A stretch of 64,000 bases of DNA from Caldifarciminota bacterium. Lineage in GTDB: Bacteria; Hydrothermota; Tepidihabitantia; Tepidihabitantales; Tepidihabitantaceae. The stretch covers positions 478,398 to 542,397 of the forward strand of contig JAOABP010000001.1 in NCBI GenBank assembly GCA_026418295.1. Reading direction: 5' to 3'. Shown one piece after another: positions 58,651 through 64,000 of this stretch. Positions within the stretch are counted from its first letter, which is position 1; each line of letters opens with the position of its first letter. A program made the position numbers and the translations under genes. Below the pieces are notes generated by a model that worked only from the letters and a program-made list of their open reading frames with translations, was not told the origin of the DNA and ran no database searches.

Positions 58651-59551
58651 TTACTTTATGATCACACGGACAGTCTGTGCCTCATTACCGGTGGCGAACC
58701 GGACCAGATAAACCCCGGCGGGAACGGGCCTGCCGGCATCATCACGGGTATCCCATTCCACAGCCGGAGAACCGGAGCCAGACTGTCCGATGATCAAGCC
58801 CCTGATTTTCCTGCCGGAGATTGAATAGACATCACTCTTGATCCAGCCCGGCTCTGCCACCCGGCAGGGCAATCTGACCATTTCCCCCCTGACGGACCCA
58901 GATTGAATTGCCCGGATAACTATTGTCAAGTAATACACCCTCCGACTGTCCACCGCTCTCAGGTAACTCATAGCTGCTCCACAATCGTAGGGTGCGTCTG
59001 TCAACTTGTACCATTTCGGGATCGCCTTGATACCGTTCATGCCGGGATATTCCACCGGTCCGTATCTGTAGAAATGCGGACTGTTACCCCCGACAATCGC
59101 ATAAACCCAGGCGCAGGCGCCAGGTGATGCCGGATTGTCGTAGGCAAATGCCAGTGCCGCTCCGCTGACAGCCGGTTCCGGCAGGTCCGGATAACGGAGC
59201 CAGGAGTTCTGACTTATGCTGTAACGCCAGAACTGCCTGCTGCCCCCCCCACCAGAGCGTAAATATGGTCTCTGAGGTCAGAGGTGAGCGCTCCACCTGC
59301 CTGCACCGGCACCGCTTCTGCCGGCAGGTCAGCGACACTGGCATCATCCCACTGGTCATTGGCACAGTTATGCTTCAGGAACTTTTTTGTGCCGCCACCA
59401 ACGAACGCATAGATAACTCCGGGCAGTCCAGTAGTGAGTGCAGCACCGGGCTGTTCAGGATATGGACAGGGAGCAACCGGTTCCCAGGCAAAACTGAGAA
59501 CCACAGTCCTGATGAAATCAGGACTGTCATAATGCGGGATCTGTCTTTCAT
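58651..59551 (-). pseudogene. Kelch-like secreted protein gene, frameshifted
   Basis: Strong upstream signals (perfect promoter, AAAGGAGGAG, ATG 59551) lead into MKDRSRIMTVLISSGLWF, a likely signal peptide. The kelch-type sequence, however, is in another frame (PGAALTTGLPGVIYAFVGGG, DHIYALVGG) and after a run of eight G (59250-59243) shifts again to SRQFWRYSISQNSWLRYPDLPEP. The C-terminal part (58651-59055) has the FlgD-like domain ending VRVIIK. Two frame changes are needed for one protein. It may be a decaying gene, a phase-variable gene at the G8 tract, or a sequencing error. Confidence 0.7.
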
Positions 59552-59598: not shown

Positions 59599-59627
59599 AT
59601 TATAATCTATGATTCTATTTCTGTCAA
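59599..59627 (-). promoter_or_regulatory. Perfect-consensus promoter of the kelch/YVTN operon
   Basis: On the minus strand TTGACA (59627-59622), 17 nt, TATAAT (59604-59599). The leader to ATG 59551 is about 40 nt and has a strong Shine-Dalgarno. Confidence 0.85.
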
Positions 59628-60718
59628 TAGTATTTGACGCTGGAACGCGTTTACTTATACTTCCTATCATCACATCAGGAAACCGGCTTGTTGCCCTTTC
59701 CGCCGGAATCGGGCGGGGACATCCGAACTATCTTGATGCTGTACTCTCATTTCTCCCCGGCGTGCCCCGACAGACAGCTTCCGGATGGAGTTGGCAGTTT
59801 TTAAGACAGCTCTACCGGCTCGGCGGCAGAGGCGGACCGCTGACCGGAATTTACAACCGGTTCCGTCGGTCCGGAGCAGTTTCCGCATCGGTATTATCAA
59901 TACTTGAGCATAAACTGAGGAGAGAACTTCGCAGTTTCCCCGGAACCGTGCTTGTTGACCATCCGCTCCTTGCCCGGCTGCTGGGACCGGTCTGCCGGGT
60001 CGTCTATCTGCACGGTGAAGTCGCCGCTCCGGAAAGCGCCGCAATCGCTGAGGCGGAACTGATTCTTGTCCCGCTGGAGCCGACCGCCCGGCGGTTTGAG
60101 GCGCTGGGCATCAGCCGGGCAAAACTGGCGGTCACCGGACTGATCATTGAACCGCAACTGCTGGCGCGTGCAGAAACCGCCTTCCATAATCGTCTGGCGC
60201 GCTACCGCACTGACCAGCCGCTGACCGTTGCCTTCTTCACCTCCGGCGCCTATCCCCGACCCCATATGACAGCCATCTGCCTTGCCGCCCGCTCCTGTCT
60301 TGATGCCGGACACCGGATGCTGGTGTTTGCCGGCACCGAAGGCAGATATGCCCCCAGACTTCCCGGCACCATGGTATTTTCATCCCGGGCTGAGGAAAAT
60401 GAAAAAACCGCCGGGCTTTTCCCCGAAATTGACCTGATGGTGGCGGCAGCGCACGAGCGGATAAACTGGGCGCTTGGCCTGGGCCTGCCGATGTTTGCCC
60501 TGCTGCCCCATATCGGACCGTTTGCGCCCGAAAACTTCGCCTTTGCCGCAGAACAGGGGGTATGCCTGCCCCTGACTCAACCGCAGAAACTGGGCTCAAT
60601 CATCAATACCCTGCGCCACTTCGGCAGACTGGCAGAAATGGCACAGGCGGGCTGGGGAAAATTACCGATCACCGGTGCGGAAAACGCTGCCCGGCTGGTG
60701 AGCGACTGTCTTCAGTAG
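59609..60718 (+). CDS. Glycosyltransferase-like protein (GT-B, MurG/MGDG-synthase type)
   Basis: Up to 369 residues. The first conserved element is LVALSAGIGRGHPNYLDAV, resembling the glycine-rich acceptor loop of MurG and diacylglycerol glycosyltransferases, and the C-terminal half has TVAFFTSGAYPR, HERINWALGLGLPMFALLPHIGPFAPENFAFA, typical of nucleotide-sugar binding in GT-B folds. It could glycosylate a lipid. ATG 59609 is the only canonical start, but the apparent promoter lies between it and the first conserved motif. No ATG, GTG or TTG occurs in frame between 59669 and the motif, so an ATC start at 59669 is possible. Confidence 0.65.
   Translation: MILFLSIVFDAGTRLLILPIITSGNRLVALSAGIGRGHPNYLDAVLSFLPGVPRQTASGWSWQFLRQLYRLGGRGGPLTGIYNRFRRSGAVSASVLSILEHKLRRELRSFPGTVLVDHPLLARLLGPVCRVVYLHGEVAAPESAAIAEAELILVPLEPTARRFEALGISRAKLAVTGLIIEPQLLARAETAFHNRLARYRTDQPLTVAFFTSGAYPRPHMTAICLAARSCLDAGHRMLVFAGTEGRYAPRLPGTMVFSSRAEENEKTAGLFPEIDLMVAAAHERINWALGLGLPMFALLPHIGPFAPENFAFAAEQGVCLPLTQPQKLGSIINTLRHFGRLAEMAQAGWGKLPITGAENAARLVSDCLQ
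59634..59661 (+). promoter_or_regulatory. Promoter inside the annotated N-terminus of the glycosyltransferase gene
   Basis: TTGACG (59634-59639), 16 nt, TATACT (59656-59661). Transcription would start near 59668, after the ATG at 59609 and directly before an in-frame ATC at 59669. Confidence 0.55.
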
Positions 60719-62298
60719 TTGGTCCAGGGACCGGCGACGATACGCCTTCCACCGCCCTTGACATCGCTGACATAGACCGCAGGACGATTAAGTCCGTTTC
60801 TCTGCCCGGCATCACCGATCCACGCCTTCAGTCTGCGGTCCGGAGAGACGACCTGCTCCTCACGAACCGCTGATGCTGAAGCACCGCTGAACACTCCTGG
60901 ATAGCGCCACATCCTGCCGGTATTGACATTGACACACCACCATTGCCGCTGCTCCGGATATCTGACTTCAAGCTGTGTGCCCGTGGCCTGATAGACACCG
61001 GTACCGGCGGCGAAAATCACGGTGGTGTCATCAAGCCATTCCGGCGCAAAACCGCTGGTAATCAGGTTTATCAGCTGCAGTTCACTGGAAGTAAAGTCAT
61101 ACCTGCCAAATCCGGTCGCAGTCCTGAAGAATGCCCGGTTGCCATTCAGCCATCGGGGCTGGTAACCGTTGCCGATAATCCGGAAATGAGCCGAATCCGG
61201 CTCGGCAACCGCCACCAGACTTGTATCCGCCTGCATCAGTTCCAGAAGCAGCCGGTTGCCCTCCGGTGCCGGGACAATTGCACTGACCTCAAACCCCTTA
61301 ATTGAAAAGAGATATTTAATCCGGCCGTCAAGCCCAAAATGAACGATGCTGTCCTGATGGAATATCAGCAGTCCGCTGCCGTCTGCCTGCCAGGCATACG
61401 GTCCAGCAAACGGCAGTTGCCGGTTTTCACTGCCATCGGTTTTTACCAGCCAGAGCGTCTGTCCCGACTCATCAGAGTGGATATAGGCGATATGCCGGAA
61501 ATCAGGAGCAAATTTTACGCTCTCAATTTTTCCGCCCGGCTGCAGTTTCAGCCTGCGCACCGGCACCCCCAGACTTTCCAGCTCAATCACACCCTCAGCC
61601 GACACGCGGTAACTCATCAGAGGAAACGTCCCGGACCTGATCTGCTCTGCAGTCAGCGGTTCCTTCCTGCCCCTGTCCGGCACCAGCCGCCAGAAACTGA
61701 CCGGAACCGTAGAATCAGTTTGTGGTCTTTCAGCAATAACCAGCGCGCTGTCCCCCTCATAATAAAGCACCGCCAGCCAGTCGGCATCGGTTAAACCCTG
61801 CGCCGGCAGGCGGGTATTGCCCCTGCTGAGATTCAGCTCCCGGAGCTGAAACCGGTTGCTGCTGTAGTCAAATACAGTCAGCGCTAACCTGGTGCCGGAA
61901 TCGGACCAGACGCCGTCTTCAATGTAGTTCCGGCGGTCACCCGGCTCATCCACCAGAAGCAGCTGACGCACCGAACCATCAGCAAGGTTGAGCACAAACA
62001 GCCCCCAGCCGCTAACCAGCGCCAGCTGCTCACCGGAGTGATCAGGAATCACACGGTTAATCACCGATGGTGTCAGAATCCGCACCGGCAACTGGCTGTC
62101 AACCCGCACAACCGCAATCACATCTTCACTCTCCAGACCCTCAACATCACTCCCTTCATCATAATAACGGGCAGTAAAAGCCAGCCAGCGACTGTCAGGC
62201 GACCAGCGCAGGTGCTGGAATTCAACCCGGGTCGCATACCAGCCGAATACCAGCTGAATACCGGCAAGTAGCAGAAAAGCGGTTTTATTTCTGACGAT
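60712..62298 (-). CDS. TolB-like beta-propeller protein with N-terminal membrane anchor
   Basis: The ORF track starts at GTG 62121, but the same frame is open further upstream and encodes VRNKTAFLLLAGIQLVFGWYATRVEFQ, a membrane anchor, then LRWSPDSRWLAFTARYYDEG, a TolB/WD40-type blade that belongs to the protein. The full frame begins just after the TGA of the preceding gene, with AAAGGA, 6 nt, then ATC. No ATG, GTG or TTG is available, so I place the start at this ATC (528 residues). More blades follow (VKFAPDFRHIAYIHSDESGQTLWL, VVSPDRRLKAWIGDAG). Function is unknown; the neighbour is a secreted Asp-box protein. Confidence 0.65.
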   Translation of the reverse strand: MVRNKTAFLLLAGIQLVFGWYATRVEFQHLRWSPDSRWLAFTARYYDEGSDVEGLESEDVIAVVRVDSQLPVRILTPSVINRVIPDHSGEQLALVSGWGLFVLNLADGSVRQLLLVDEPGDRRNYIEDGVWSDSGTRLALTVFDYSSNRFQLRELNLSRGNTRLPAQGLTDADWLAVLYYEGDSALVIAERPQTDSTVPVSFWRLVPDRGRKEPLTAEQIRSGTFPLMSYRVSAEGVIELESLGVPVRRLKLQPGGKIESVKFAPDFRHIAYIHSDESGQTLWLVKTDGSENRQLPFAGPYAWQADGSGLLIFHQDSIVHFGLDGRIKYLFSIKGFEVSAIVPAPEGNRLLLELMQADTSLVAVAEPDSAHFRIIGNGYQPRWLNGNRAFFRTATGFGRYDFTSSELQLINLITSGFAPEWLDDTTVIFAAGTGVYQATGTQLEVRYPEQRQWWCVNVNTGRMWRYPGVFSGASASAVREEQVVSPDRRLKAWIGDAGQRNGLNRPAVYVSDVKGGGRRIVAGPWTNY

Positions 62299-62310
62299 AT
62301 TCTGTCCTTT

Positions 62311-63642
62311 TCAGCGCACAATGGCTAACCGGTGCAACTCCACCCCGGATTTTAGGAAATAAATTCCGCGCCGGAGCCGGCTCAGATTGTTGAACCCGGG
62401 TCCGAGGTCAAGGATCCGGCGCCCGCTGATATCAAGAACAACCCCACCCGGCTGAGGAATGAGAAGAAGGGAGCCATCATTGACAAGCTTTGAACACTGC
62501 CTTGCGGTCGGCTTCAGTTCCGTCTCCTCAATTCCGACCGGATAGCCGAAAAATCCCCACATCACCTTGTAAGGCCAGGTATCACCCTGGGTCCACACCG
62601 CCAGTGCAGCAAGACCGCTGGGAGCAAAGACCGGTTCCCCGATACCAAACAGCCGGCGCACCGTGCCCCGGGTCCAGCCGGCCATGAAATAGTATAAATG
62701 ATAGTAGATGTCCTGATACCCGGCTGAATCCTCCTCCCAGAAAAGATAGGACCAGACCGTGCCCACCGTTGCCACCACCGGCGCCGTTGACATACCGGCT
62801 GTATGATAACCGCCACCATTGCCACCGGCAAAATGGGCATCATAATTCCCGCCGGAACAAACCTCCCACGCTGCGGAAAACCAGTCGCCGCTGGCAAAAT
62901 CAAGACTGGGGTGATCAAGCGGCTCCGAATTCTCCATCAGCACCTGCACCGGCAGCCAGGTGCCATTCACCTGACGCCGCTGGACAATCCGGTAGGGTGC
63001 AGGCTGTGCCGGGTTGAACTCCTGCCAGAGGACATAAATGGTATCCCGGAAGCATTCGATCGCCGGAAACCGGCACTGAGCAGTGCTGTCCGGTGAAACC
63101 CGAAACCGCCCGCTGATCACCCCGTTCTCATTGACGGTGCGATACCAGATCTGCGGATGATCCGCACCTTCCTCCCAGACAACATGGGCAACACCGGCGC
63201 TGTCCGCATAGACATCCGGATGACCGCAGTGAATTCCGCTGGTGCTCACATTCACCGGCAGCATCCGGAATTCCAGATTCCGGTAGTAAACATTGGCCAC
63301 ACCAGTTCCGGTATCAGTCATCACCCAGACCAGGTGCCGGTCTCCGTCTCTGCCCCAGGTGATCCCCGGATCCCGCCCGGGATAAAGGGCAACCGGACGG
63401 CTCCAGGGCTGAACCGGACCGTTTCCGGATAGACAGTAATAGATACTCTCCCGCGACTGGAAAACGAGTGTAATCGTATCCCGGTCCGGATAAAGCATCT
63501 CGCCGCGGTAAGCAAGTTTGTGACTGTTGCTGGGACCGGTTGCGGACCGGGAGGAGGTGGAACAGATAACTCCGAACTCATACTGTCCGGCAGCCATTCC
63601 TGACAGCAGTGCCACGCTCAGCAGCACTCTGCCGATCTTCAT
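62311..63642 (-). CDS. Secreted Asp-box-like protein with sorting-type C-terminus
   Basis: A 443-residue protein. Signal peptide MKIGRVLLSVALLSGMAAGQ. The mature region has repeated strands such as GDRHLVWVMTDTGTGVANVYYRNLEF and VAHVVWEEGADHPQIWYRTVNENG, like BNR/sialidase-type propellers. The end (VVLDISGRRILDL...LRRGIYFLKSGVELHRLAIVR) is the FlgD-like/type IX-style tail. ATG 63642 follows GGGAGG; the ORF-track start two codons earlier is a GTG. It precedes the TolB-like gene by 12 nt in one transcript. Confidence 0.75.
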   Translation of the reverse strand: MKIGRVLLSVALLSGMAAGQYEFGVICSTSSRSATGPSNSHKLAYRGEMLYPDRDTITLVFQSRESIYYCLSGNGPVQPWSRPVALYPGRDPGITWGRDGDRHLVWVMTDTGTGVANVYYRNLEFRMLPVNVSTSGIHCGHPDVYADSAGVAHVVWEEGADHPQIWYRTVNENGVISGRFRVSPDSTAQCRFPAIECFRDTIYVLWQEFNPAQPAPYRIVQRRQVNGTWLPVQVLMENSEPLDHPSLDFASGDWFSAAWEVCSGGNYDAHFAGGNGGGYHTAGMSTAPVVATVGTVWSYLFWEEDSAGYQDIYYHLYYFMAGWTRGTVRRLFGIGEPVFAPSGLAALAVWTQGDTWPYKVMWGFFGYPVGIEETELKPTARQCSKLVNDGSLLLIPQPGGVVLDISGRRILDLGPGFNNLSRLRRGIYFLKSGVELHRLAIVR

Positions 63643-63926: not shown

Positions 63927-64000
63927 ATGGTCATCCTGCCCCGCTATGTCTTTCTCACCAAAGGGGTCGGTATCCACCGGGACTGTCTCTTATACACATC
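63927..64000 (+). CDS. Pyruvoyl-dependent arginine decarboxylase, 5' fragment
   Basis: AAGGAGGG precedes ATG 63927. The first about 19 residues, MVILPRYVFLTKGVGIHRD, match the conserved N-terminus of PvlArgDC (FFLTKGVGxHKE). That enzyme makes agmatine, a route to polyamines. The reading frame runs to the window edge, but the last 18 bases are adapter, so native sequence ends by 63982. It is not close to the decarboxylase/DHS-like pair at 50-52 kb but may serve the same pathway. Confidence 0.8.
   Translation, partial: MVILPRYVFLTKGVGIHRDCLLYT
63983..64000. other. Nextera transposase adapter at contig end (artefact)
   Basis: CTGTCTCTTATACACATC equals 18 bases of the reverse complement of the 19-bp Nextera/Tn5 mosaic end. 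It is untrimmed library sequence, not genome. Confidence 0.95.

Follow-up and report, generated by a model that had tools for sequence, protein, structure and literature searches.

Probable AUC start codons, one Shine-Dalgarno-led and one leaderless, in two convergent genes of a Caldifarciminota bacterium

Two convergent neighbouring genes with overlapping ends, one for a TolB-like beta-propeller protein and the other for a GT-B fold glycosyltransferase, are likely both translated from AUC rather than from AUG, GUG or UUG. AUC starts are known, though rare. For the first gene the AUC would follow a Shine-Dalgarno (SD) sequence, and for the second it would lie at or very near the 5' end of a leaderless transcript. 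That the two genes adjoin each other is probably a coincidence.

Both genes lie in a stretch of 64,000 nucleotides (the window, to which all positions below refer unless a contig is named) that forms the last part of a 542-kb contig from the source genome (G000), which comprises 1.8 Mb. The principal comparison was with the sister species, G001, which differs from the source genome at about 10% of sites (about 90% DNA identity); more distant relatives included G002, from the same genus, and G020, from another family. The glycosyltransferase was aligned with 20 relatives and the ortholog search for the TolB-like gene took in 61 genomes, while scans of GTDB contigs yielded no additional orthologs of either protein. 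The terminus of the contig, positions 63983-64000, reads CTGTCTCTTATACACATC, a Nextera transposase adapter, and these last 18 bases are probably non-genomic.

The glycosyltransferase gene and its promoter

The glycosyltransferase gene, read from ATC 59669, occupies 59669-60718 on the plus strand. Its product matched nothing in sequence searches of Pfam, NCBIfam and the PDB. However, its AlphaFold model (pLDDT 89) contains two Rossmann-like domains in a GT-B fold, and Foldseek returned the galactolipid synthase MGD1 as the best PDB match (E 3e-11), along with many other GT-B enzymes. The promoter described in the initial annotation is indeed present: a -35 element TTGACG (59634-59639), a 16-nt spacer, a -10 element TATACT (59656-59661) and, 7 nt further on, ATC 59669-59671. 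The absence of a canonical start between this ATC and the first conserved motif was also borne out, as the frame from this ATC onward has no canonical codon until GTG 59762, which lies behind the conserved motif GIGRGHPNYLD.

The entire TTGACG-16-TATACT-7-ATC arrangement is retained in G001. Across relatives, the -35 element is kept as TTGAC followed by G, C, T or A (G001, G002, G003, G009, G013 and G020), and the -10 element, identical in G001, reads TATCCT, TAACAT or TAGTCT in others. It was proposed that relatives carrying a canonical codon exactly at the ATC would make a strong case, and for the glycosyltransferase this is what the alignment gave: behind the equivalent promoter the orthologs begin with ATG at 6 nt (G003, G009, G020), 7 nt (G013) or 8 nt (G025 and G026, whose -35 elements are weaker) and with TTG at 6 nt (G002), which makes six relatives with ATG and one with TTG. 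For the TolB-like gene, the sole ortholog itself has ATC.

The source genome thus has a -35/-10 pair with the -10 element at the leaderless distance of about 5-8 nt from the proposed start, and has no canonical codon there. Such a codon at the 5' end of leaderless mRNAs is usual, not strictly defining. Within our survey of starts (see below), this is the sole leaderless-type promoter that has no canonical codon nearby; all others have one. The exact start codon is ambiguous, since a second ATC (59666-59668) stands directly before the first, 4 nt behind the -10 element. Conserved leaderless starts in the lineage mostly lie 5-8 nt behind the -10 element, most often at 6 nt, and this favours ATC 59669, without amounting to proof. 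In one related family (L032, L033 and L034; G022, G019 and G024), the initiator tRNA gene is located directly upstream of the glycosyltransferase gene.

The most serious competing reading confines AUC initiation to the TolB-like gene and lets the glycosyltransferase begin at the in-frame ATG 59609-59611, adding 20 residues that include ILFLSIVFDAGTR. This frame is open and carries the ATG in both G000 and G001, with no intervening stop, and the 60 nt from the ATG onward differ at a single position between the two. Such near-identity can be explained by two back-to-back promoters, as the ATG is covered by a perfect divergent promoter, TTGACA-17-TATAAT (59599-59627, minus strand), which points to a gene starting at 59551 and which in G001 has an identical -35 element and TATAAA as its -10 element. 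The ATG also has no SD sequence and lies 25 nt upstream of the -35 element of the only good promoter. Moreover, residues 1-17 of the long reading are modelled with pLDDT below 50 and ordered structure begins at residue 27, while the 20-residue extension is missing in relatives, the closest of which have stops or no start codon in this region. We therefore judge that ATG 59609 is not the start and regard this alternative as unlikely, whereas an AUC start of the glycosyltransferase, taken singly, appears quite probable.

The divergent gene itself (58651-59551, minus strand) has an SD sequence and ATG 59551 and is split over three frames: the reading frame breaks once near the beginning of the gene and again within a tract of eight C (59243-59250). 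It may be a pseudogene, contain a phase-variable tract or reflect an assembly error.

The TolB-like gene and the stretch before it

The TolB-like gene, read from ATC 62298, extends over 62298-60712 on the minus strand as an open frame and encodes a protein of 528 aa of the TolB/DPP-IV beta-propeller type. It matches the DPPIV_N profile (E 4e-6) and, weakly, TolB; assignment to TolB of the Tol-Pal system was rejected (TIGR02800, 17.5 bits against a cut-off of 343), so that the protein is propeller-like only, and its structure model (pLDDT 39) is too poor for use. The preceding gene, for a secreted protein, runs from ATG 63642, with GGGAGGTG upstream, to a TGA stop at 62313-62311. Behind this stop come AAAGGA (62310-62305), the hexamer CAGAAT and ATC 62298-62296, exactly as first noticed, which places the ATC 6 nt after the SD sequence and 12 nt after the TGA. 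The frame is open from the TGA onward, and contains no ATG, GTG or TTG ahead of GTG 62121, which is 59 codons downstream of the ATC.

The only ortholog among the 61 genomes is that of G001, which has the same neighbours and 86% protein identity. Its start region reads TGA AGGACGGGATT ATC, with AAGGA as the SD sequence, 7 nt before the ATC, and with ATT immediately before the ATC where G000 carries AAT. In normalised terms the SD spacing is 1 in G000 and 2 in G001, which is the mode of SD-led genes in the lineage. The ATC is thus kept, though at about 90% DNA identity a given codon is often retained by chance, and there is a single ortholog. The coding character of the region upstream of GTG 62121, claimed in the initial annotation, was corroborated by the substitution pattern: between G000 and G001, synonymous changes in codons 2-59 number 11.5 and non-synonymous ones 8.5, which gives a dN/dS of 0.19, compared with 0.87 and 9.5 in the shifted frames. 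The distance from stop to ATC differs by 1 nt between the two species, i.e., by a net 1-nt indel upstream of the ATC, so the frame that they share cannot start upstream of the ATC in both. Together, the coding signal and the indel just upstream place the start of translation at about ATC 62298. The N-terminus read from there, VRNKTAFLLLAGIQLVFGWYA, looks by its composition like a signal-peptide segment.

A start further downstream, either at codon 9 (CTG) or at GTG 62121, is improbable. CTG does serve as the infC start in this lineage, and GTG 62121 is the first canonical codon common to both species (in G001 the first one lies 16 codons downstream, where G000 has GTA). However, neither codon has an SD sequence, with CTG as the start the signal peptide would lose its charged n-region, and the codons that either choice would surrender wholly or in part are those under purifying selection at the protein level. 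Fusion to the preceding gene by readthrough or frameshifting, with no new start at all, is highly improbable: the TGA at 62313 and the TolB-like gene share a frame in the window, but in G001 the two genes are intact and in different frames owing to the indel, which makes a readthrough fusion impossible there. That ATG was turned into ATC by sequencing or assembly errors, an objection raised at the outset, has a negligible chance of being correct, because the separate genome of G001, with about one site in ten different, has ATC at both places, a strong argument against error even though the two frameshifts in the adjoining divergent gene might reflect errors in this assembly (or a pseudogene).

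As no relative carries ATG at this position, the case for the TolB-like gene depends on the exclusion of alternatives, the coding signal and the SD spacing. Taken singly, AUC initiation in this gene is very probable.

Start codons and initiator tRNA in the lineage

To place the two ATCs in context, start codons were surveyed over about 540 kb of G000 against G001, i.e., about 30% of the genome and 427 ortholog pairs. Conserved signals assigned starts in 295 pairs, 247 of them SD-led and 48 leaderless, and the two modes of initiation reported earlier for the window are thus well represented. Because of how the count was constructed, both species have ATG, GTG or TTG at nearly all of these starts. 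An unconditioned scan also revealed strong enrichment of ATG and GTG about 6 nt behind promoter-like sites, and on these sequences leaderless initiation is an ordinary mode in this lineage. The 132 pairs with no assigned signal were checked only for a coding signal upstream of the first canonical codon, and a few more non-canonical starts could therefore be missed.

Among the 427 pairs, only the TolB-like gene and the glycosyltransferase remained as AUC-start cases. Both ATCs stand apart from chance occurrences by position, 62298 at the modal SD spacing and 59669 within the leaderless spacing. General use of AUC, AUU or CUG starts in the genome was rejected, as other near-cognate codons at the place marked by a start signal lie a few codons at most from a canonical start or in an overlapping gene; similarly, an apparent ACG start opposite an ATG (ORF A185) resolved to a GTG one codon on.

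Near-cognate starts are nevertheless found in infC. The source genome encodes IF3, and in G000, G001 and G002 infC begins with CTG 6 nt behind AGGAGG, a layout that G003 and G009 share. CTG behind AGGAGG accounts for two genera, and the other genera of the family apparently use ACG or ATA. In other families infC has ATT, ATC or ATA starts. Across these infC loci (L145, L147, L150, L143, L146 and others) no canonical start fits. The infC starts fit the known class of IF3-autoregulated starts (PMC5472188), and, to judge from the infC CTG, the lineage is one that tolerates near-cognate starts.

The genome contains 44 tRNAs. A search among them for an initiator-type tRNA with anticodon GAU gave no hit, since the one GAU tRNA is an ordinary tRNA-Ile; the sole initiator tRNA has the anticodon CAU. 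Reading of AUC would therefore involve a mismatch at the third codon position, as it does at known AUU and AUC starts. The initiator tRNA gene (G000, contig C8, 414532-414605; loci L210 and L235) has the anticodon stem TGAGG/CCTCA, in which an A29:U41 pair leaves two G:C pairs instead of three. Variants of these G:C pairs are known in some bacteria. The three pairs are described as highly conserved (PMC7949028). The A29 side is present in 33 of the 37 matched genomes of the class (L212-L241), and U41 in every sequence read over its full length; A29:U41 extends throughout the order and to part of the class, whereas GGG/CCC is retained in families f9 and f10. It is conceivable, and in our estimate rather doubtful, that this variant tRNA loosens start selection enough for AUC to act as a natural start codon, even where the mRNA is leaderless.

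In the mechanism that we propose, the ordinary CAU initiator tRNA would read AUC in both genes. The TolB-like gene would rely on its SD sequence, and its initiation would probably be coupled to termination at the stop of the preceding gene, 12 nt upstream. The 5' end of the glycosyltransferase mRNA would lie at AUC 59669 or 1-3 nt from it, and initiation would be leaderless. As in infC and sigR, the weak AUC codon may keep expression of both genes low and subject to control by IF3.

Relation to known systems and significance

Genes with non-canonical starts are a known kind, with infC and sigR as examples, and among them a leaderless AUC start would be unusual. The infC gene of Streptomyces starts with ATC (PMC5472188). 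Like infC genes with AUU or AUC starts, the TolB-like gene has a near-cognate codon behind an SD sequence. The spacing is normal, and the first canonical codon comes 59 codons later (16 in G001). Unlike infC, which autoregulates IF3, neither the beta-propeller protein nor the glycosyltransferase has a known tie to translation. Closer in this respect is Streptomyces sigR, a gene outside the translation machinery with a GTC start that is repressed by IF3 and lowers expression, and whose annotated start had been placed wrongly at an upstream canonical codon (PMC5472188). However, the codon of sigR is different and has been proven experimentally, whereas the AUC starts described here are predicted from sequence.

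The glycosyltransferase is best compared with leaderless genes of Deinococcus-Thermus, in which the start codon follows a -10 hexamer by a few nt and has no SD sequence (PMC12340547). The same layout is found in the 48 leaderless gene pairs of this lineage. The glycosyltransferase differs in having AUC at its proposed start; no non-canonical leaderless start is noted in the part of that source used here (PMC12340547). With respect to coupling, re-initiation in Escherichia coli involves a preceding stop and an SD sequence near the next start; re-initiation, like leaderless initiation, is sensitive to IF3 (PMC2268962). The TolB-like gene resembles this arrangement in its stop and SD layout, but differs in its AUC start, and its coupling is suggested by position only.

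Gene callers accept only ATG, GTG and TTG, and genes with AUC starts are consequently missed or misannotated. Here, the effect would be to trim the TolB-like protein, with loss of its signal peptide, and to extend the glycosyltransferase wrongly. A leaderless AUC with ATG or TTG in the equivalent place of its orthologs offers a natural experiment in replacing a start codon, one that would probe how much weight codon identity carries when no SD sequence assists. The variant initiator tRNA in these genomes offers a concrete molecular candidate for a contributing factor.
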